Assembly: GCA_964017185.1 (NCBI GenBank)
Contig: OZ024884.1
Span: forward strand, 19,748,048 to 19,812,047
Length of the DNA: 64,000 nucleotides
Origin: Rugalucina vietnamica
Lineage: Eukaryota; Mollusca; Bivalvia; Lucinida; Lucinidae
Reading direction: 5' to 3'
Under the pieces are notes generated by a model. The model saw only the letters and a program-made list of their open reading frames with translations, had not been told where the DNA came from and did no database searches. Both the position numbers and the translations under genes were made by a program. How positions within the stretch are numbered: the stretch's first letter is position 1; each line of letters starts with the position of its first letter. Shown in pieces: positions 6,675 to 64,000 of this stretch.

Positions 6675-6828
6675 CCTATTGGGAAAATAGCTGCTCATTC
6701 GGCTTACGATATGTTTCATGGTATAAGTACCTGATTGTTAGTTTGGTTTTTTCCCACCTCGGTTTTTGGAGTGGGAATCTTTTTCTGATTGCGCCTTTTC
6801 CTGATCTTTGCCTACTTGTACCTTTTTA
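6675..6828 (+). mobile_element. 5'-truncated Naiad retroelement, 3' end only
   Basis: These 154 bp appear identical to 53,455-53,608, the 3' end of the full-length Naiad element in this window. They end at the same position (TGTACCTTTTTA), with unrelated flanks on both sides. Severe 5' truncation with a fixed 3' end is what target-primed reverse transcription leaves. The near-identity suggests the family has been recently active. A short open frame here (6,665-6,859) is untranslated-region sequence. Confidence 0.8.
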
Positions 6829-13739: not shown

Positions 13740-14705
13740 TGCCGTGTTTTGTTATACCCCCGGCATTTATGCCGACGGGTATATAGTTTTCGCTTTTCCG
13801 TTCGTCCGTTCGTCCGTTCGTATGTTCGTTAGTTCGTTGGTTCGTTGGTTCGTTAGTTCAGTTAAAATGTCAAAGTTTTGGTTAAAGTTTCTCTGCTGGT
13901 GTATATCTCATGAACTAAATATCAGAAACCATTCATATTTGGACTATAGGTACCCTATAGGGTTAGCTTTGTTTCTATGAGTTTGGACCCCAGGGTCCAT
14001 GCCTGGGGGTGGGGCTAGAGTTCAAAATCTAGGTCACCTTTAATTTGCGTCAAAGTTTTGGTTAAAGTTTCTCTGCTGGTGTATATCTCATGAACTAAAT
14101 ATCAGAAACCATTCACATTTGGACTATAGGTACCCTATAGGGTTGGCTTTGTTTCTATGAGTTTGGACCCCAGGGTCCATGCCCGGGGGTGGGGCTAGAG
14201 TTCAAAATCTAGGTCACCTTTAATTTGCGTCAAAGTTTTGGTTAAAGTTTCTCTATTGGTGTATATCTCATGAACTATATTATCAGAAACCATTCATATT
14301 TGGACTATAGGTACCCTATAGGGTTAGCTTTGTTTCTATGATTTTGGACCCCAGGGTCTATGCCCGGGGGTGGGGCTAGAGTTCAAAATCTAGGTCACCT
14401 TTAATTTGCGTCAAAGTTTTGGTTAAAGTTTCTCTATTGGTGTATATCTCATGAACTAAATATCAGAAACCATTCATATTTGGACTATAGGTACGCTATA
14501 GGGTTGGCTTTGTTTCTATGAGTTTGGACCCCAGGGTCCATGCCCGGGGGTGGGGCTAGAGTTCAAAATCTAGGGTCACCTTTAATTTGCGTCAAAGTTT
14601 TGGTTAAAGTTTCTCTAGTGGGGTATATCTCATGAGCCAATCATCAGAAGCCATTCATATTTGGACTATAGGTACCCTATAGGGTATAGGGTTGCGTCCA
14701 TGTCG

Positions 14706-18300: not shown

Positions 18301-18974
18301 TCAAATCGGACATGCTACCAAACGAGCTATCATGCCTTGTCTGTCTGTGTTTAAGCAATATATTACCCAGTGCACAATATGAAATTTGGGCATAGTACAA
18401 TAGCATGCATGGGCAGATCCGGGATTTCTAGGAAGGGGGTTCAAATACAGTAATGGAGGTTCGTTTTCTAATTTTCACCACACATTTCTCAAATTTCCTC
18501 ATGAAAATGAAATAATTTGGCCTGAGAGGAGGGTTTGAGCAAACCCTCTGAACCCCCTCTAAACCCGCCACTGGCATGAAAAGATAAAAAATAAGCAATT
18601 ATCAAGAACTGGTGTAATCAGAACCCACCCTAAAAACCAAGGTAGGAAATAATAAATTGATAATCAGGTACTAATACAAAGAGAACATATCATAAATTGA
18701 GCAGCTATTTACCTAAAGGTGGCCACTCAGTTACCCAAACTTAACTACATGTATTAGTATGAAAAAGCACATAAAAGGTGAAAGGAATGTCCACACTAAG
18801 CACTGGAAATCTGCCTTCAGGAGGCTCACCGAAGAAGTGGGACTGGTAATTGAAGGTGATCATATGAATATAGCTAATTTTGGGAATTCTTTGAGTATGA
18901 TACACTACTATACTATACTATTGCAAGCGTGGTTGGGTGGGAATATTGGCCCCCCGCCCGTTGGGGCCTAAAGA
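18301..18974. other. Intergenic DNA, nothing recognised
   Basis: No gene recognised. The stretch 18,411-18,570 (around GGGGGTTCAAATACAG and GGGTTTGAGCAAACCC) looks like an old repeat. Confidence 0.35.
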
Positions 18975-25831: not shown

Positions 25832-38953
<13,122 letters not shown>

Positions 38954-42089: not shown

Positions 42090-42328
42090 AATTAAAATTG
42101 TTGTTCACATATATATATATGTGTCAGCTTCATTATGTGAGAGTCTACTTGCAGCACACAATTAATTAGAAACAATGTAAACAAACATTCCAATTTAGAG
42201 CAGCATTTTCACAAATAAACGAAAACCTATTTCATTGTAACTGAGATACTATAAGATTGAAAATGTTCGTGAGAACTTAATTTTCATGAATATTTGTGAA
42301 TTTGACGCCTTGCATAAAAAGAAAAAAT

Positions 42329-42705
42329 TATTCAATGTTCTCTCTAATAAAGATTCTTTTTAAGTCATAAAGACTATATGAACACTCATTCGCAAATTCA
42401 AGACTTTGTGAATTATTTGGAAATAGGAAGTTCGCAAAATAAAAGTCACATGAAAATTTCCAAATTTACAGTACTCTCTCATAGATTTTTTACAACAATC
42501 TCAAAATACCACAATTATTCAATGTTCTCTCTAATAAAGATTCTTTTTAAGTCATAAAGACTATATGAACACTCATTCGCAAATTCAAGACTTTGTGAAT
42601 TATTTGGAAATAGGAAGTTCGCAAAATAAAAGTCACATGAAAATTTCCAAATTTACAGTACTCTCTCATAGATTTTTTACAATAATCTCAAAATACCACA
42701 ATCAC
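42329..42705. repeat. Two ~187-bp tandem copies, nearly identical
   Basis: The unit beginning TTATTCAATGTTCTCTCTAA at about 42,327 recurs at about 42,514 with essentially no differences up to CTCAAAATACCACAAT, so the duplication is recent. The unit belongs to the family at 40,040-40,255. Confidence 0.8.
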
Positions 42706-48325: not shown

Positions 48326-49270
48326 ATGTTTTCTTTTCACGAACAGATCTTAAGAACGAATATTCAGTCTAAAAAGAGTACATCCTACCTCGCATCGGAC
48401 ATTATCGGGAATCTCGACGCAGGTCTCCGAGTTTTCCCCGACGCTGCTTTTTTTGTACTTTTTAAGTACGTTAAGAAAGAGGATGTTTCCGGGCTTACTT
48501 CAGGTCAAAGAGGTACAAGGGGTCAAGGTTGGGCCCGGGAAACGATTGAAAAGTTGGTTATCAAGAGTCAAGAAACAAACAAGCAAATTCAGAAAATTTA
48601 TGTCCCCCGCCTTGATTGTTTAGTTACACAAAATATAATCTGAGAATGATGTATATCCAAACCACATGCACTTTAAATGTAAATGCCCGAAAAATTGAAT
48701 AAAAAAGTTATATAAATATAGATAAACCTGAAGATTATATTCAAACCACAAGCACATCTTCAAAGCCTGGTCTAAACCCATCTTCAAACCATGGTCAAGA
48801 CATCTGTTTCAAAAGAATCGGAATAAAACTGAAGGAGGAGTTTCGCACACAAGGTGCACATGTACTATAGGGAACAAAATGACGGAAAGGTGAAAACTAT
48901 GAACCTCCGCTTTTCTTCGAAAATGCGTGGGACAATAATACGAAGAACAGAAGAACAGCAGAAAATGAGAGAAGAGGAACGGATCGTAAGACAACATGAG
49001 CGCGACATTGCTGACAACAAAACAATTGAGTATCAGGTCAAAGAGGTCCAAGTTGTCAAGGTTGACCTTCCTAGGGGCATACACACGACCACATGTCTAA
49101 ACTGCAAATTACCTGCCACGAAGATTGTATTTACGCAGATGATGATCAAAAAATGCTGTGTCTGGCCATGGAGAACAGAATTTGTAGTGAATGTCTGGAT
49201 GAAGACTAACAAGAAGGACAAAAAACCACTGTCCTATAGGCGATCAGCTCTGCATTTGGAGCGCCCATAA
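48326..49270 (+). pseudogene. Divergent Cys-rich gene fragment, copy B (disrupted)
   Basis: Homologous to the open copy at 56,801-57,247. An N-terminal stretch FSFHEQILRT lies near 48,330. REEERIVRQHERDIA then VKEVQVVKVDLPRGIHTTTC lie at 48,960-49,105. A 1-nt deletion after TCLNC (TGCAAATTACC for TGCAACTTTACC, near 49,107) shifts the frame, losing the CHENC pattern. The long frame at 48,854-49,270 therefore ends in an out-of-frame tail. The unit's Naiad insertion lies about 125 bp further on. Confidence 0.55.
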
Positions 49271-49751
49271 AATCAGCCGTATCATTTCATGAACGTTTTG
49301 CTTCAAAGCCCGAAACGACATAACACATAGGTCTATGATCTTGGATACTAGTTAATGGAATGACAGAACAACCAAAAGTATGTTAAGAAAAGTATGTTAA
49401 GTATGTGTGGCGGCCCTAAAAAGTCTCCCCGTACATCCATTTAATGCTCTTATTTTTCCAATCCTCAGGGATTGCTTGCAATCAGTTTGTATTTTCCTAT
49501 CTCTAACTACCACAACTCTTCGATACCGTATTGAAGGTCATTAGTTGACCGTCACTCGTATCTCGTTGTATAAGCGATTCTTACGTTTCTATCCATGGAC
49601 TTGTATTAGACATGGACCTGAGGTGTGGGTTTCGGTTATACCTTTTTCTTTCATTCGAAAGATTTTGCATTACGATTAAGTGCATTATTTATTCTATAAC
49701 CGGTATGAGTGTCGCGCTCCTTTTGGCAGTATCAACACAATACTCCCAACT

Positions 49752-52700
49752 ATGACTATCACAAAAAGATTAGGAATTACATTAACTCCCCTTAGGTTGC
49801 ATGCCGCGTCTACTGTACGGATTCCTCATTCAACTAACAATTTTCAAAATTTATTACCTACTGTAAGGGTGACACCTCTTAATTTATTTTCGGCATCTAC
49901 TGTTAATCTACACGGAGCTTCTAATTCTAATATGTTTCGTAATAATCTTCAGATTAGGTTATCTCCACTCAAATCACCAATTTTACGTAAATATATTAAT
50001 CCGTTCAAGAGACCTGGAATGTACCCTAGTATTTCTAAGTGCAATGCCAAGAAGTGCAACGGTTGCAATCATTTATGCTCTAAGACTACTATCACTTCAT
50101 CTGTGAATGGAAGGACATTTTCAGTGGTTAATGATTCTGATTTAGACTGAAAATCAATGGATCTTGTATATGTTCTTACTTGAAATACAAACAACTGTAG
50201 GATGCAATATGTTGGACAAACTTGTCGAACTTTGCAAAAACGATTTGGTGAGCACTATCGTAGAATCAGAAAGCCCAAAAATAATGATACCTTCCTGTAC
50301 CAGCATTTTAAGCGCACTGGTCATTCTCCCAATGATGTTAAAGTTCAACCAGTGGAGAAAATCTCATATGATGAAAATTCTTCAATTAGATTCAAAAACA
50401 TTAAACGATTTGAAACTGAACTTAAATGGATAAAATTACTGCAAACACCCTTTCCACTGGGATTTAACGACAACATTTACCATGAAGGCAATATTTCCAA
50501 AATGCCCGATTTTGATGTACTTACACTTTCGGACTCTCGTAAACGTAAATCTAGATCTCATGGTATACGGAAAAAGGGTAATGACAAACGTAAACGGTGC
50601 GCTGCATTGAAATTGAACATTTCTCTTAATGATTTAGCTGTTAAACTAAGGATTCACGGTCGACATCCAATGCTGTCGTATCTTAGTTCTCTACCTATTG
50701 CTGCATTACGTTCCTTGGACACAGATGCTAATAGATTTTACGATAGAAATCATCAAATGTATGACGCTGCACTGTTAACAAGATGTTATACTCAGCATGC
50801 TCTTCGTCCATTTATCGATTCCGAATCTAATCACATTAGAAGTTTTATTAAAATTCCTTTCATCAATAAAGGAATTGACTTTATTGATTTACCAAGCATA
50901 TTCCAGGATAAATCAGTGATACAGTCTATACCTACCTACTTCCAAAACTCAGAACCTCCTATTATTTGTTACAAATATAACAAACCAATCAGAAATACAA
51001 TTTTTAATTTCAATAAACTTGTTTCTGATCTTGATATACATGCTAATACTCCTAAGTCTTGAGATTGTAAAGATTCAAAATATGTTTATCAACCCGCTGG
51101 ACATATTGTTACTGGAAATTTAAAAATAATTTCGGATTCTAGAATTCGCAAAATTGTTTCTAAAGGTCCGAAATATAGATTCCCTTCCTACATTAATTTC
51201 GACAAATGTAGAGAGGAGATTTCATCTGCATTAAATGATTTCGGTAATCGATGGTGTAAACGAGAGGTTGTTGATGATAATGCTCTTAAAGAATGGAAAA
51301 GAAGTATCTTCACTATCGTGGATAAACGTATTAAGTTTTATTCACAAAATACTAATCTTTTACCTCCTAAACCCAAATCGTCATTTAGGCATTTGAAGCA
51401 GGGTATCCAAGAATTTCATAGAAAGTATGTCTTGGTTCCGGCAGATAAAGCCGCAAACAATGTTGTTGTCGTTTGTAGGCTTCACTACGTTAACACCTTA
51501 AAACAGGAGCTTGATGGTACCAGGGCTTATCTGGAGACAGATACTGATGAGGTGTCTGTAGTTAATGCCCACTTAAACGATTTACCTGTTAAGTTTTCTG
51601 TTTGTGTCAATGAAGGCCAAGACAAACTTCCTACGATGTATTGGTTACCTAAGCTTCACAAAAGACCATACAAAGCTAGATTTATTGCAAATTCTAGCTC
51701 TTGTACTACCACTGAACTTTCTAAATTATTAACTTCCTGTCTTACTGCTATCAAATCTCATGTTATAAGATACTGTGAGACAGTGTGTGAAACTTCAAAT
51801 AAAAATTGGTTTTGGTCAATTAAAAATTCTGGTGAGGTGCTCAGTAAATTGAAGTGTAGAGGGTTCCGTGCGACAAGCTTGTCCGCATATGATTTTTCTA
51901 CTCTGTATACAACATTACCACATAATCTAATTAAAGAAAAACTTCTGGATTTGATAGAGTGGACCTTCAAAAGGGCATTAAAAAACTATGGTTCACTTTA
52001 TTTGGCATGTAATGACAGAAAGGCTTTTTTCACTTCCTCTGACCAAAGTCGGTATACACTTTGGTCATGTCAGAATGTATGCGACGCCTTATCCTATCTC
52101 CTTGATAATATTTATATTAGATTTGGGACCAAGTTATACAGACAAATTGTTGGAATTCCGATGGGTACAAATTGCGCACCTCTCGTAGCTGATTTATTTT
52201 TATACTGCTACGAAAGAGATTTCATGGATTCTCTTAACCATGATAATCAAGCTGATGTTATCGAGGCTTTTAATTCCACATCTAGGTACCTCGATGACCT
52301 TTTGAACATTGACAACCCTTATTTTGAAGGTATGGTCAATCAAATTTATCCTCCTGAACTTCAGTTGAACAAAGCCAATATCTCAGATACTGAAGCCCCC
52401 TTTTTAGATCTACATCTTTCTGTTGCAAATGGATTTGTTTCTTCTAAAATTTATGATAAGCGCGATGACTTTGATTTTGATATAGTAAATTTTCCTTTTT
52501 TGGATGGTGACGTTCCTCGTCGTGCTTCTTATGGTGTATACATTTCGCAACTTATTAGGTTTGCTAGAGTCTGCAATCATGTTACAGACTTCAACGCTCG
52601 AAATAAATGTTTAACGGCAAAACTTCTCCAACAGGGCTATCGGTATCATAAACTTCGAAAAACATTTTCTAAATTTTATCGTAGACACTATGAATTGATT

Positions 52701-52985
52701 TCCAAATATAATGTTGGGTTAAAGATTCTTTTAAGTGAGGGCCTTTCGGAACCTGAATTTTATGGTGACTTGGTTTACAAATTTAAGAAACTTAAAGGAA
52801 TTAATGATTTTTCTTTTCAGTTCAGAAAAATCATAACACGTTACAGACGTATAGGTTATAACTTGAATGTTATGCGACAGTCTGCATGCTTAGTTTTTAA
52901 CCCAATCATGGTTGATAACTATGCTGCCTTCTTTAATTGCACACCGGTGGGTCGGGCGTCAGACTCTATGATGGCCCCGACATAA
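49752..52985 (+). CDS. Naiad GIY-YIG endonuclease-reverse transcriptase, predicted selenoprotein with three UGA codons
   Basis: One frame of 1,078 codons including the UAA stop, interrupted only by UGA at 50,148 (residue 133), 50,181 (144) and 51,060 (437); there is no UAA, UAG or frameshift. An in-frame TAA at 49,677 precedes it and ATG 49,752 is the first AUG. Order: Cys-rich finger (CNAKKCNGCNHLC), GIY-YIG endonuclease with LVY (138-140), MQYVGQT (151-157), KRFGEHY (163-169) and an acidic FETEL (220-224); a basic linker; a U-D-C motif at 437-439, where this PLE clade has CxC. The reverse transcriptase follows with PKLHKRPYKARFIANSS, motif A YDFSTLY (713-719), motif B GIPMGTN (801-807) and motif C YLDD (846-849). 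Endonuclease first and RT last is the permuted order of Naiads; canonical PLEs have the reverse. Selenoprotein Naiads are reported from clams and spiders. Confidence 0.85.
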
Positions 52986-53043
52986 AGCTATTCATTTTAG
53001 TTGGTTGGGGCCGGAGCTTCTTGTCTGTTGCTTGGCCCACCGG
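52944..53043 (+). promoter_or_regulatory. SECIS-like element overlapping the Naiad stop codon
   Basis: Read as RNA: helix I pairs 52,944-52,964 with 53,023-53,043 (21 positions, one U-U mismatch, several G-U). The core is AUGA at 52,968-52,971 opposite GA at 53,014-53,015. Helix II pairs 52,972-52,981 with 53,004-53,013 (10 bp, outer U-G). An internal loop AUAA (52,982-52,985) follows, then a 5-bp helix III (52,986-52,990 with 52,998-53,002) closed by UUCAUUU. AUGA, GA and the unpaired adenines at 12 nt spacing match eukaryotic SECIS rules, and the extra helix makes it form 2. The UAA stop codon (52,983-52,985) supplies the apical adenines, so the element straddles the end of the ORF. Confidence 0.75.
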
Positions 53044-53989
53044 GGTCCAACTGGTGTTTTTCTTTTGCTCCGGAGTTAGTAGGTTATTCGGCGCCCAGGG
53101 ATCTCCATCGTCGGGCAGCTTACTCAGTCTGTGAGTCCTGGTTTTTGATTCATCAGGATGTTTATCATGATTTATTTGTTTGTTCTTGATGATTCATTAA
53201 CTAGTTAGAGATTCACCACGAGGACCGAATAACTAACTAAATGTTATGAACCACTGCAGAAGCTGAGGGTGAGGTTATGGCCATGTAAAACCGGTTTAAG
53301 CCCGCCAGTAACTTTGTGTTACTGATCGTTCCAAGTCGATACTTCTGTGGTGGTTCTTTTTGTTTTATGTTTTGGTGTATAAAAATTTTTTGTGCTGTTG
53401 GCGCCTTATGTATGTTTTCATATTTTTAGTTAAGTTAAGGTAACTGAGTGGCCACCTATTGGGAAAATAGCTGCTCATTCGGCTTACGATATGTTTCATG
53501 GTATAAGTACCTGATTGTTAGTTTGGTTTTTTCCCACCTCGGTTTTTGGAGTGGGAATCTTTTTCTGATTGCGCCTTTTCCTGATCTTTGCCTACTTGTA
53601 CCTTTTTACATTGTACATGTACTTATCTACAATTCTTTAGTTTTCCAAGTGTTTATCCTTTTCCTTCTCCTTCAAAGGTTTGATCGTCACTCACATTTTT
53701 TTTTCAATTTGTTAATACTGTTTTTATAAAACAAAACTTTATATGCTCGTAACTTGTTGTTTATCACTTTTTAGTCCATTGAAATCATTGGCCCATTCTT
53801 AAATTTTGAAAATATGGAGTGTCACTGGATAGACCAAAGTGGCATAAACTACTTCTTCCTTATACTTCAAAGTGCTCTTGACATTTTTGACGAAACAAAG
53901 ACATGGAGACATACCTTCAATTCATCGGTGGCTATAAAATTGCCAGTGAAACTAGAATTGTCTAGCACCACTTCTGAGCTTTTTTTTCA

Positions 53990-54440
53990 GGGTGAGAAAA
54001 ACAATGACAGGTAACAATCCCAAGCTAGATCTTATCAATGTTGATGTGCATACAAAATTTGGTCAGATCCTGTCAATGAGTTCTCAAGATATTCAGCGGA
54101 AACAAAATTCTGTAGTATATGTGAAGGGTCATAACTCCGTCAAAATTATGCAAAAAATGATGGGTTACAATCACAAGCTAGATCTTGTCAATGCTGATGT
54201 GCATACAAAATTTGGTCAGATCCTGTCAATGCGTTCTCAAGATATTGAGCGGAAACGAAATTCTGATGTAAATCAAGGGCTGTAACTCTGTCAAAATTTT
54301 ACAAAAAGATGGGTAGCTAGGTCTTGTCAATGTTGATACAAAGTTTGGTCAGTCAATTTATTCTCAAGATATTGGGTGGAAACCAAATATTCACGGAATC
54401 ACGGAAAGACGGTAGGGCAGGGCGAATCCAGCATAGCTCC
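53990..54440. repeat. ~150-bp tandem repeats in unit C, array 1
   Basis: About three units based on ATGATGGGTAACAATC, CAAGCTAGATCTTGTCAATG, ACAAAATTTGGTCAGATTCT, CAAGATATTGAGCGGAAAC and GGGCCGTAACTCCGTCAAAA. The array ends in TCCACTTTTCCAAAGCGGG. Longer versions are at 58,280-59,250 and 63,260-64,000. Short frames here are repeat artefacts. Confidence 0.8.
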
Positions 54441-54599
54441 ACTTTTCCAAAGCGGGTATATAATAAATGAAAGACCAGGCACACGCTTATAGAAAGTAAG
54501 AAGGAATAAAACCAGAACGAACATGGAAGTGATTTATTTTCATGTTTGTGGACTTTGAAGACATAATTGTCGTGAAAATGCTAACACTGACTGGTAAGT

Positions 54600-56800: not shown

Positions 56801-57247
56801 GAGGATGTTTCCTTTCTTACTTCAAGTCAAAGAGGTTCAAGTGCTCAAGGAAACGGCGGGGGAAACGGTTGGAAAGTCGGATATAGCGTATCCAGAAAAA
56901 TAATACAAGGAACTGAAGAGCAGCAGAAAATGAGAGAAGAGGAACGGATCGTAAGACAACATGAGCGCGACATTGCTGGCAACAAAAATTTCGAGTATCA
57001 GGTCAAAGAGGTCCAAGTTGTCAAGGTTGACGTTCCTAGGGGCATACACACGACCACATGTCTGAACTGCAACTTTACCTGCCATGAAAATTGTATTTAT
57101 GCAGACGATGATCAAAAAATGCTGTGCCAGGCAATGAAGAATAGAATTTGTAGTGAATGTCTAGATAAAGACTACCAAGAAAGGACAAAATGTCAATGTA
57201 CACAAAATAACCATGAACGTTTTGCTTCAAATCCCGAAAAGACATAA
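56801..57247 (+). CDS. Divergent Cys/His-rich protein fragment, copy C (open)
   Basis: Open from 56,801 (after an in-frame TAA) to the stop at 57,245-57,247; the first in-frame ATG is 56,930 (105 aa). A charged, probably helical segment (REEERIVRQHERDIA) leads into VKEVQVVKVDVPRGIHTTTC. A zinc-ligand-like pattern follows: TCLNCNFTCHENC, LCQAMKNRICSEC, TKCQC. TxCLxCxxTCHxxC segments occur C-terminal to P-loop GTPase-like domains in some fish and invertebrate proteins; that link is from memory and weak. No P-loop is present here, so this is either the last exon of a gene whose upstream exons I cannot find or a retained fragment. Copies B and D are frameshifted, which argues against strong selection. 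Confidence 0.4.
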   Translation, partial: EDVSFLTSSQRGSSAQGNGGGNGWKVGYSVSRKIIQGTEEQQKMREEERIVRQHERDIAGNKNFEYQVKEVQVVKVDVPRGIHTTTCLNCNFTCHENCIYADDDQKMLCQAMKNRICSECLDKDYQERTKCQCTQNNHERFASNPEKT

Positions 57248-57249
57248 CA

Positions 57250-57960
57250 TAATAATAATAATAACAATAACTTTATTTAAAGAGGATAACATATTTGGCA
57301 GATATGCCAGTCTAACATATGGTCCTCAACTAACAAATATTTAAATGCTTGACAAAATGAATATACAGTCTAATATTTACAATGGTATGTACAATTTGAA
57401 GATACTATGTGACAGACATGCGAGTACATGCGAGCTACACAACCCCGCTCCATTGCATTGGGTTGAAAGTTGGCTTGACGCCATCCAGTGGCTTGGTTTA
57501 TCATTTCTGCGTATCATTCTTTTATTTTTGTTGACTTAGCATATCGGTTTCCGCATGACTATGGCCATAGCTATTGGGGGTCACATAACGCTATCACAAT
57601 ATCAGGTTCTCGTTTGTAACATCTAGAAAGGTAAGTTATTCTGTCAATTTCTTGATCACTTAGACTGTCCTCCGATATGTTGAATCTCTTAATAACACAC
57701 CTATGAACTTGGATACCTGTTATACAGTAATGGAATGATAAAACAACCAAAAGTATGTTTTACATTGTATATATTATTATGCAGGGATATTGTTGGCTTG
57801 AAAATGAAAGGGGCCATTTCATGAAAAATGCTCGGCTAGAATCATTATTGCCTATCTACTTACATTATAAAACCGGCCCATTATTTCAAAAAGAAGGGGC
57901 CATTTTGAAAATTAAAGGGCAATTTTGCCCATGGCCCCTCCCAAAATTATCCCTGATTAT
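57250..57960. other. Unit C tail with unit-specific insertion
   Basis: Begins with a short (AAT)n run, then a segment absent from the other units (AGAGGATAACATATTTGGC to ACCTATGAACTTGG), returns to AACAACCAAAAGTATGTTTT, and has a further ~200-bp insertion (57,758-57,955) before ACTTATCTACAATTCT. No gene recognised. Confidence 0.45.
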
Positions 57961-58279
57961 GTACTTATCTACAATTCTCTAGTTTTCCAAGTGTTTATTC
58001 TTTTTCTTCTCCTTCAAAGGTTTGATCATCACTCACATTCTTTTTTCAATTTGTTAATACTGTTTATATAAAACAAAACTTTATATGCTCGTACCTTGTT
58101 GTTTATCACTTTTTAGTCCATTGGAATCATTGGCCCATTCTTAAATTTTGAAAGTACGGAGTGTCACTGGATAGACCAAAGTGGCATAAAATACTTCTTC
58201 CTTATACGTTTGACGAAACAAAGATCACTCTGCAGTCACCGGTTGCTATAAAATTGCTGAAACTAGAATTGTCTAGCCC

Positions 58280-59250
58280 CACTTCTGAGCTTTTTTTCAG
58301 GGTGAGAAAAACAATGACAGGTAACAATCCCAAGCTAGATCTTGTCAAAACAAAATATTTGGTCTGATTCTGTCAAATAGTTCTCAAGATATTGAGCGGA
58401 AACAAAATTCTGAAGTAAATCAAGGGCCGTAACTCCGTCAAATTTTTCGAAAAATGATGGGTAACAATCACAAGCTAGATATTGTCAATGTTTATGTGCA
58501 TACAAAATTTGGTCTGATTCAATTCGTTCTGAAGATATTGAGCGGAAACAAAATTCTGTAGTATATTCAGGGCCGTAACTCCGTCAAAATTTTGCAAAAA
58601 ATGATGGGTAACAATCACAAGCTAGATCCTGTCAATGTTAATCGGCATACAAAAATTGATTTGATTTTGTCAAATCGTTCTGAAGATATTGAGCGGAATC
58701 GAAATTCTGATGTAAATCAAGGGCTGGAACTCTGTTTAAATTTTGCAAAAAAAAAAAAAAAAAAAAAAAAAATGATAGCCTACGGTAACAGTCCCAAGCC
58801 AGATCTTGTCAATGTGGATGTGTATACAAAATTTGCTCAGATTCTGTGAATTTATTCTCATGGTATTGAGCGGAATAGCGGAAACTAAATTCTGACATAA
58901 GTCAAGGGCCGTAACTCTGTTTGCTTAAAATGACGGGTAACAATCTCAAGCTCGATCTTGTCAATGTTGATGGCATACAAAATTTGGTCAGATTCTGTCA
59001 ATTCGCTCTTGAAATATTGAGCGGAAACAAAATTCTGACGTTAATCAAGGGCCGTAACTCCGTCCAAATTTCACAAAAAATGATGGGTAGCAATCCCAAG
59101 CTAGGTTTTGTCAATGTTGATGTGTATACAAAATTTGGTCAGTCAATTCATATCAAGATTGAGTGTGGAAACCAAATATTCACGGAATCACGGAAAGACG
59201 GAATGACAGAAGGACAGAGTGAATCCAGCATTGCCCCACTTTTCCAAAGC
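58280..59250. repeat. ~150-bp tandem repeats in unit D, array 2
   Basis: About six units of the array described at 53,990-54,440, with an A-run at 58,747-58,771. The same A-run position recurs at 63,707-63,736 in the next unit, so it was present before that duplication. Confidence 0.8.
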
Positions 59251-59399
59251 GGGGATATAATAAATGAAGGACCAAGCACACGCTTATAGGAAGTAAGAAG
59301 GAACATAACCAGAACAAACATGGACGTGATTTATTTTCATGTTTGTGGACTTTGAAGACATAATTGTCGTGAAAATGCTAACACTGACTTGTAAGTCCA

Positions 59400-60790
59400 T
59401 TAATAAGAGCTCGCCTGACTTTTGCTTTGTCACTTAATCTATTAAAATCTATGACCCATGACATTGACCTCAAGGTCACTCAGGTGGGTCATGATGGTAC
59501 AACATAAAACTTAGATCAATATCTACCAACATGCAAAGTATCAACTTGATCCATCTACATATCGAAGAGATATAGACTTATAAAGACTTTAACCAAAAAC
59601 TTTAACAGAAAATTTCTTAGTCCGTGACCTTGACCTAATAGTCTTCCAGGTGGGTCGTGATGATACAACATAAAACTTCGGACCAATATCTACCAACATG
59701 CAAAGTATCAACTTGATCCATCAACACATTCAAGAGATATAGACTTATAAAAACTTTAACCAAAAACTTTAATACACAATTTCTAAGTCCGTGACCTTGA
59801 CCTCAAGGTCACCCAGGTGGGTCATGATGATGCAGCATAAAACTTCAGACCAATATCTACCATTATGCAAAATATCAACTTGATCCATCAACAACTTCAA
59901 GAGATATATACTCCTAAAAACTTTAACCAAAAACTTGAGCAACGCCGACGTAAACGCTAACGCCGACGCCGGGGTGACTGCAACAGCTCTTCCTGCACTT
60001 TCGTACAGGCGAGCTAAAACTAATTTGACATGTTTTAGGATTGCTACAGCAAGGCACATCTACGTATATTTTGTTAACTTCCAACGACTGTGCATTATCC
60101 AACAGTTTGTACTTCTTCCCTCATTAGATAACCCATTAGATAAGAGCTGTCGCAGGACAGCGTAGCTCGCCTGACTTGTGCTTTGCCACTAAATCTATTA
60201 AAATCTATGACCTATGACATTGACCTCAAGGTCACTCAGGTGGGTCATGATGGTACAGCATAAAACTTAGATCAATATCTACCAACATGCAAAGTATCAA
60301 TTTGATCCATCAACATGTTCAAGAGATATAACCTTAAAGCAAAAACTTTCACACAAAATTTCTTAGTCCGTGACCTTGACCTAAAGGTCACCCAGGTGAG
60401 TCGTGATGATACAGCATAAAACTTCAGACCAATATCTGCCAACATGCAAAGTATCAAGTTGGTCCATCACCATATTCAAGAGATATAGACTTATAAAAAA
60501 CTTTAACCAAAAACTTTAATACAAAATTTCTAAGTCCGTGACCTTGACCTCAAGGTCACCCAGGTGGGGCATGATGATACAGCATAAAACTTCAGACCAA
60601 TATCTACCAACGTGCAAAATATCAACTTGATCCATCTACAACTTCAAGAGATATAGACTCGTAAAAACTTTAACCAAAAACTTTAACATTTGAGCAATGC
60701 CGACGCTAACGCTAACGCCGACGCCGACGCCGGTGTGACCGCAATACCTCTTCCTGTACTTTCGTACAGGCGAGCTAATAAAGGATGTAT
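59400..60790. repeat. Tandem 'TGACCTCAAGGTCA' repeat, two full elements in unit D
   Basis: Two consecutive elements, about 59,405-60,018 and 60,146-60,778. Each starts near AGCTCGCCTGACTT and ends GACGCCGG.GTGAC...TTTCGTACAGGCGAGCTA; the ends are inverted repeats. Each holds three ~190-bp subunits with GTGACCTTGACCTCAAGGTC. The second looks like a unit-specific extra insertion and explains most of the greater length of unit D. Confidence 0.7.
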
Positions 60791-62157: not shown

Positions 62158-62750
62158 ATGACAACGAAAAACGATAGTACACAGCTGATCAACGACTTGT
62201 TTTCTCTTCACGAACAGATCTTAAGAACGAAAAATTCAAGCTTCAAGAGTACAGCCTACCTTGCACTACCTTACTCATCGGAAATCTACACTCAGGTTTT
62301 TAGACACCCAACGTTTTCTCCGATGCTGCTATTTCTTGTACTTTTTTTAATTAAGTTAAGAGGATGTTTCCTTTCTTACTTCAAGCCAAAGAGGTTCAAG
62401 TGGTCAATGACACGGCTAGAAAGTCGGATATTGCAATTCCAAAAAAAAAACAAATTATACGAGGAATTGAAGAACAGCCAAAAATGGGAGAAGAGGAACG
62501 CATAGTAAGACAACATGAGCGCGACATTGCCGACATCAAAGATTTCCAGTATTAGGTCAAAGAAACTCAAGTTGTCAAGGTTGACCTTTCTAGGGACATA
62601 CACACGACCACCTGTCTGAACTGCAACTTTTCTTGCCATGAAAATTGTATTTATGCAGATGATGATCAAAAACATTTTGTGCCAGGCAATGGAGAATAGA
62701 ATTTGTAGTGAATGTCTGGATAAAGCCTATGCCTACTAAGAAAGGACAAA
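62158..62750 (+). pseudogene. Divergent Cys-rich gene fragment, copy D (disrupted)
   Basis: Homologous to 56,801-57,247. LFSLHEQILRTK lies near 62,196 and EEERIVRQHERDIA near 62,490. TAG replaces the CAG codon at 62,552-62,554 (TATTAGGTCAAAG against TATCAGGTCAAAG). A 1-nt insertion in CAAAAACATTTTGTGCC near 62,667 breaks the Cys-rich part. Confidence 0.55.
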
Positions 62751-62914
62751 ATAACCACTGTCCTATAGGCAATCAGCTCTGCATTTGGGGCGCCCAAAAT
62801 TCATCCATATCATTTCATGAAAGTTTTGCTTCAAAGCCCGAAACGACATAACACACCCATGATCTTGGATATCAGTTAATGGAATGATAAAACAACCAAA
62901 AGTATGTTTTATAC

Positions 62915-63705
62915 GTACTTATCTACAATTCTTTAGTTTTCCAAGTGTGTTTCCTTTTCCTTCTCCTTCAAAGGTTTGATCATCACTCATATTTTTTTTT
63001 CAATTTGTTAATTCTGTTAATATAAAACAAAACTTTATAGGCTCGTATTTTGTTGTTTATCACTTTTTAGCCCATTGGAATCACTGGCCCATTCTTAAAT
63101 TTTGAAAGTACTGGATAGACCAAAGAAGCATAAAATACTTCTTCCTTATACGTTTGACGAAACAAAGATCACTCTGCAGTCACATGGAGACATACCTTCA
63201 ATCCACCAGTTGCTATAAAATTGCTGAAACTAGAATTGTCTAGCCCCACTTCTGAGCTTTTTTTCGGGATGAGAAAACAATGACAGGTAACAATCCCAAG
63301 CTAGATCTTATCAGAACAAAAAATGTCAACTAGTTCTCAAGATATTGAGCGGAAACACAATTCTGAAGTAAATCAAGGGCCGTAACTCCGTCAAAATTTT
63401 TTGAAAAATCATGGGTAACAATCACAAGCTCTTGTCAATGTTACATGTAATGTGCATACAAAATTTTGTCAGATTCTGTCAACTCGTTCTCAAGATATTG
63501 AGCGGAAACAAAATTCTGTAGTATATTAAGGGCCGTTACTCCGTCAAAATTTTGCAAAAACATGATGGGTAACAATCACAAGCTAGATCCTGTCAATGTT
63601 GATCCGCATACAAAATTTGATTTGATTTTGTCAATTCGTTCTCAAGATATTGAGCGGAATCGAAATTCTGATGTAAATCAAGGGCTGTAACTCTGTCAAA
63701 ATTTT

Positions 63706-63738
<33 letters not shown>

Positions 63739-64000
63739 ATAGCCTACGGTAACAGTCCCAAGCTAGATCTTGTCAATGTGGATGTGTATACAAAATTTGG
63801 CCAGATTCTGTGAATTTATTCTCATGAAATTGAGCGGAAAAGCGGAAACGATATTCTGACATAAGTCAAGGGCCGTAACTCTGTCAAAATTTTGCGTAAA
63901 ATGACGGGTAACAATCTCAAGCTCGATCTTGTCAATCTTGATGGCATACAAAATTTGGTCAGATTCTGTCAATTCGCTCTTAAAATAATGAGCGGAAACC
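62915..64000. repeat. Start of a further lectin unit, with ~150-bp repeat array
   Basis: From ACTTATCTACAATTCTTTAG the sequence follows the beginning of units C and D. 63,260 to the end is array 3 of the ~150-bp repeats, with an A30 run at 63,707-63,736. A lectin gene is expected beyond the window on the minus strand. Confidence 0.75.

Follow-up and report, generated by a model that had tools for sequence, protein, structure and literature searches.

The window, that is, the whole 64,000-nucleotide stretch of Rugalucina vietnamica DNA analysed here, contains a retroelement copy with one long open reading frame (ORF) that is interrupted by three in-frame UGA codons and is overlapped at its end by a selenocysteine (Sec) insertion element (SECIS). 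The features discussed below are as follows.

49405..53608, + strand: retroelement copy of about 4.2 kb, missing from a paralogous duplicate within the window
49752..52985, + strand: single ORF of 1,077 residues plus stop, with TGA taken as Sec; predicted N-terminal GIY-YIG endonuclease, linker, and reverse transcriptase (RT)
50148..50150, + strand: UGA1 (LD-U-KS), predicted Sec, residue 133
50181..50183, + strand: UGA2 (YVLT-U-x4-C), predicted Sec, residue 144
51060..51062, + strand: UGA3 (S-U-D-C), predicted Sec, residue 437, in the linker that joins endonuclease and RT
51474..51476, + strand: TGT Cys codon, residue 575, a fourth Sec-capable column
52960..53027, + strand: SECIS element (Rfam RF00031), with AUGA core at 52968-52971 and AAA loop at 52984-52986; it covers the final codons of the ORF together with the UAA stop
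52983..52985, + strand: UAA stop codon, within the apical loop of the SECIS

The sole interruptions of the frame 49752-52985 on the + strand are the TGA codons at 50148, 50181, and 51060; with TGA as a sense codon, the open frame spans 49680 to 52985, and 640 open codons follow UGA3. These results reproduce the preliminary description of this DNA, which had counted the same three UGAs as the only breaks over 1,078 codons (1,077 residues and the stop) and had noted that UAA, UAG, and frameshifts are absent from the frame, as is indeed the case for the window copy. Its statement that UGA1 and UGA2 flank the GIY strand also holds (U-KSMDL-VYVLT-U). The probability that three random nonsense changes in the ORF would all produce TGA is about 0.026, a figure that is only suggestive; the case for Sec is carried by the SECIS, the genomic copies, and a sister family of the element.

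The N-terminal part of the protein matched the GIY-YIG endonuclease model (Pfam PF01541) with 28.9 bits against a cut-off of 22.6 when residues 121-203 were scanned alone with TGA read as Cys; the domain was not reported by a Pfam scan of the entire 1,077-residue protein. The part following the endonuclease contains the motifs PKLHK, DFSTLYTTLP, MGTNCAP, and YLDD, which we take to be those of the RT of Penelope-like elements (PLEs). The RT part found no match among Pfam, NCBIfam, PHROGs, and PDB sequences, so that the RT is assigned by these motifs; a search with the 640 residues after UGA3 against viral contigs and plasmids likewise gave no match. The linker reads U-D-C (51060-51068), as it also does in three copies of the sister family (L058, L059, and L064), and would correspond to a CxC linker if Sec is counted as Cys; no copy with C-x-C was seen. 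No hammerhead ribozyme was matched in Rfam, and the single CTGANGA on the + strand of 49301-53700 falls within the ORF. A twister-P1 candidate at 53293-53357 was rejected (20.8 bits against a cut-off of 67.2), as were the snoRNA and miRNA matches in Rfam, all far under cut-off. From its N-terminal endonuclease, recognized by PF01541, and its RT, recognized by motifs, the element appears to be a Naiad-type Penelope-like retroelement.

The limits of the element are given by comparison with other sequences. The flanks are joined without the element in an empty-site paralogue at 62519-63666, and a less clean one lies at 57700-57980. At the 5' side, the boundary agrees with the base at which the full-length unit begins in nine of the 39 copies fetched from the genome, the same base in all nine (L017, L018, L031, L032, L037, L040, L042, L045, and L046). 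At the 3' side, it agrees with the point where a 154-bp fragment of identical sequence, at 6675-6828, stops. No target-site duplication was seen at the junctions of the element, and a doubled 14-mer (49374-49401) is present at its 5' junction. Upstream of each of the nine copies with a full 5' end are a 3'-end piece and an approximately 24-nt linker, and five head-to-tail units spaced 4,226 bp are found on C15; the window copy is not in tandem, and the majority of the 39 copies are truncated at the 5' side. No microsatellite insertion bias was evident in the flanks of the 39 copies, as judged by eye. Tandems with pseudo-long terminal repeats (pLTRs) and a short tail have been described for Penelope elements (PMC3846280, PMC11167929), and the layout of 3'-end piece and tandem in the window family resembles this pLTR-and-tail layout.

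Several other features were observed around the element and among its fragments. The fragment at 6675-6828 (+ strand) is 100% identical to the 3' end of the element over 154 bp, a further 3'-end fragment at 18579-18747 (- strand) is about 76% identical, and a 129-position match to the 3' end, 84% identical and on the opposite strand, occurs at 3324-3451 of L053, close to a PLE-like endonuclease that belongs to a different family. A local duplication is present in several copies together with arrays of about 150-bp repeats (49000-49384, 53609-54500, 56965-59297, and 62519-64000), and EEQQKMREEERIVRQHERDIA occurs in a short open frame common to two of the duplication copies (48833-49267 and 56801-57244). 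Tandem arrays occupy 13869-14685 (180-bp unit), 28244-29525 (452 bp), 42326-42702 (187 bp), and 59459-59936 (167 bp). Two open frames on the + strand, 36537-37358 (274 codons) and 37629-38012 (128 codons), are without a Pfam match, the former also without a match among PDB sequences, and may represent host-gene exons.

The SECIS that overlaps the ORF end is the single Rfam match at the gathering threshold in the 64-kb window (SECIS_1, RF00031; 37.4 bits, gathering cut-off 35, E = 6.9e-4 for the window). The predicted fold of 52950-53040 has an energy of -41.1 kcal/mol (z = -4.12), which was equalled by one of 200 shuffled sequences. The SECIS begins inside the ORF, its AUGA opening in frame with a Met codon. 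Thirty-seven of the 39 fetched copies cover it, 23 of them without any change, and it was also matched in the divergent window-family copies L062 and L063 (38.5 and 37.4 bits, respectively); no SECIS was matched in L057, a decayed window-family copy of 88% identity that reaches this place. In the sister family, copy L061 gives a weaker match at the same place (21.7 bits against 35, with five non-standard pairs), and its TAA stop sits in the same SECIS loop as the stop in the window. Comparison by hand showed that one stem pair is altered on both sides between L061 and the window, from C-G to U-A. A SECIS is a requirement for any selenoprotein. The preliminary description, which predicted a retrotransposon selenoprotein, had not cited one; its prediction is supported by this SECIS, which scores above the curated cut-off and stands at the correct end of the element.

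The 1.09-Gb genome was scanned with patterns taken from the surroundings of each UGA, allowing at most two mismatches; 654 places matched for UGA1, 571 for UGA2, and 1,388 for UGA3, and the reversed-pattern controls matched none. Among the 100 matches listed per pattern, taken closest first and hence favouring young copies, TGA is retained in 99 at UGA1, 100 at UGA2, and 97 at UGA3, the other codons among these being TAA at UGA1 and TCA, TAA, and AGA at UGA3. The 39 copies examined over greater length are likewise young ones, because they were drawn from the best 40 of 1,617 candidates; copies truncated before a given site were left out of the count for that site. Every covering copy among them has TGA at UGA1 (17/17), UGA2 (18/18), and UGA3 (34/34). 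Decay in these copies is private, amounting to three TAA codons, one extra TGA, and frame-shifting indels in eight copies, each found in a single copy; these counts are lower bounds, because only the longest aligned piece per copy was scored and larger breaks end a piece. Accumulation of UAA, UAG, or frameshifts at rates similar to the UGAs, which had been named in advance as a finding that would speak against Sec, was not seen, the three TGAs being common to all covering copies among the 39. The element is a young, high-copy family. In one copy (L022), a Cys codon at the position aligned to 50076 of the window has changed from TGC to TGA, which may be a chance gain of Sec or plain decay.

Purifying selection extends past the TGAs. 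A codon-aware dN/dS test on genomic copies, as proposed in the preliminary description, found 94 synonymous and 98 nonsynonymous variants among the window and the 39 copies, where about 26% of coding variants are expected to be synonymous without selection, giving a dN/dS of about 0.37 (p = 9e-12). For the segment between UGA2 and UGA3, dN/dS is 0.33 (p = 2e-5), and for the segment after UGA3, 0.37 (p = 1e-7); all these p-values are somewhat too small, because variants were counted as independent and two pairs of local duplicates (L038/L039 and L046/L047) were included. The segment before UGA1, with five synonymous and eight nonsynonymous variants, showed no significant constraint (p = 0.28). 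New stops are mildly fewer (four observed) than the 7.3 expected without selection.

The UGA columns were compared with those of relatives within the same genome. One pattern matched 46 places (four in reversed controls) and led to PLE-like endonucleases of other families; of eight places fetched, five (L049-L053) matched by tblastn and three (L048, L054, and L055) did not. The window endonuclease is 26-35% identical to such PLE-like endonucleases. Both endonuclease columns are Cys in two other families (L050/L051 and L052/L053), L048 and L049 have Cys at the second (UGA2), and the sister copy L058 has Cys at the first, in line with the earlier claim that PLE endonucleases carry a Cys pair at these positions. 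UGA2 would presumably take the place of the first Cys in the CCHH motif of PLEs, and residue 144 is probably a metal ligand. In canonical PLEs, the endonuclease follows the RT. L050-L053 are probably such C-terminal-endonuclease elements; no RT match was found in the 2.9 kb after their endonuclease. They share with the window element a GIY-YIG endonuclease, with Cys instead of UGA at the two columns.

A second pattern, designed for divergent Naiads, matched 28 places, and the eight fetched (L056-L063) consist of window-family copies and copies of a sister family. Though dead, the sister copies (L058, L059, L060, L061, and shorter pieces) can still be read, and they have 69-73% DNA identity to the window; the protein of L059 is 66% identical to that of the window across 630 aligned positions. 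At column 133 (UGA1), the one sister copy that covers it, L058, has the Cys codon TGT, and at column 144 (UGA2), the same copy, again the only one covering, has TGA. Column 437 (UGA3) is TGA in three sister copies (L058, L059, and L064), and the site is missing from L066. The gap that tblastn placed at this column in L058 was rejected; the in-frame translation shows TGA right before Asp-Cys, past a deletion of about four codons. At column 575, where the window-family copies L057, L062, and L063 have the Cys codon TGT, TGA occurs in five of the six covering sister copies (L058, L059, L068, L069, and L071), the sixth (L070) having TGG; L072 leaves this column uncovered, and L060 and L061 align only beyond it, so that these three are not counted. 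In L069, the TGA at column 575 is the sole stop in the 70 codons following an early stop at codon 3. Across columns 133, 144, 437, and 575, the sister family accordingly reads C-U-U-U versus U-U-U-C in the window, all four states being displayed by L058 alone. Sec and Cys trade places between the two families, an exchange that selenoproteins are expected to show and that supports the selenoprotein reading. The earlier claim that UGA3 turns a CxC linker into U-D-C stands as regards the presence of U-D-C; no Cys-x-Cys relative was found here, the sister family also having TGA, and CxC is on our assumption the ancestral form of this linker. Relatives lacking Cys at the three columns, which had likewise been named as contrary evidence, were not seen, with the limit that for UGA3 no relative with Cys was found here.

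With regard to the host machinery for Sec, two of 24 tRNA-Sec matches in the genome exceeded the cut-off (79.0 and 71.2 bits), with five of 14 exceeding it in control genomes. Four SelD-like exon matches are clustered within 3 kb, each under the family cut-off. The search of the genome for SepSecS (PF05889) yielded no candidate, which does not fit Sec decoding; introns may be the cause of both the missing SepSecS and the sub-cut-off SelD exons.

We conclude with high confidence that the locus is a Naiad-type Penelope-like retroelement of a young, high-copy family, encoding a single protein with Sec at three conserved positions. Most likely, translation of the transcript would yield a single endonuclease-RT protein carrying Sec at residues 133 and 144, both Cys columns of the endonuclease, and at residue 437 in the linker. 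In the predicted mechanism, host factors acting on the SECIS that overlaps the ORF end would cause ribosomes to decode the three UGAs as Sec, giving the 1,077-residue product; if Sec decoding failed, translation would end after residue 132. The sequences show the frame with its UGAs, the SECIS, the retention of both in genomic copies, downstream purifying selection, and an exchange of Sec and Cys with a sister family; from these we infer that the UGAs are recoded. The Sec residues may have a chemical role, and transposition may depend on selenium. Since the stop codon lies within the SECIS, a terminating ribosome would cover this structure.

It could be argued that the UGAs are ordinary stops, in a non-autonomous lineage that has spread in trans after three nonsense mutations. 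The private TAA codons and frameshifts of individual copies and the 5' truncation of most of the 39 copies are in keeping with this. Against it stand the purifying selection that persists after UGA2 and UGA3, the SECIS, the sister family, in which two of these columns and an additional Cys column hold TGA, and the identity of all three stops as TGA, and we regard this explanation as very improbable. Slightly less probable still, in our view, is that the UGAs divide proteins that are translated independently, through reinitiation or internal starts, or that a near-cognate tRNA reads through them without selenium. The 640 open codons after UGA3 make a separate RT product possible, but UGA1 and UGA2 are 11 codons apart inside one endonuclease domain, and no stop other than UGA is present, two of the three occupy Cys columns, and a SECIS accompanies them.

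Beyond the selenoprotein reading itself, we tentatively propose, at somewhat less than even confidence, that one genome harbours two retroelement families with differing Sec sets (U-U-U-C and C-U-U-U), in which the SECIS spans the stop and would have to be opened by ribosomes as they terminate. If so, Sec use in this lineage would turn over fast, and both the supply of selenium and competition of ribosome and SECIS for the same bases could restrict synthesis of the full-length protein. That a retroelement has spread to over a thousand places and retained three Sec codons suggests more than mere tolerance of Sec, and the use of other sites by a sister family of the same genome makes Sec-for-Cys exchange open to study within one lineage. 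An annotation reading UGA as a stop would label these copies dead.

The element is worth comparing with known multi-Sec systems. Our literature search met no selenoprotein PLEs, swap of Sec sets between families, or overlap of SECIS and stop; the 2021 Naiad study considered below was outside its reach, and no claim of a first report is made. To our knowledge, most known selenoproteins are host enzymes. Selenoprotein P is the product of a host gene whose SECIS lies within the 3' UTR, clear of the stop codon. Host selenoproteins with several Sec residues, such as selenoprotein P, are described in PMC8230778. The window element would resemble selenoprotein P in having several UGAs read as Sec and a SECIS on the 3' side. 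Closer still in kind are the Naiads, which Craig, Yushenova, Rodriguez and Arkhipova (Mol Biol Evol, 2021) are said to have characterized as having an N-terminal GIY-YIG domain, a CxC linker, an RT, pLTR tandems, no canonical hammerhead ribozyme, and several selenocysteines; those of clams and spiders reportedly became multi-Sec selenoproteins independently. The window element is like the clam and spider selenoprotein Naiads in its N-terminal GIY-YIG domain, putative RT, the pLTR tandems of its family, lack of a hammerhead match, and several predicted Sec residues and, multi-Sec Naiads being already known, it adds a member to a known type.
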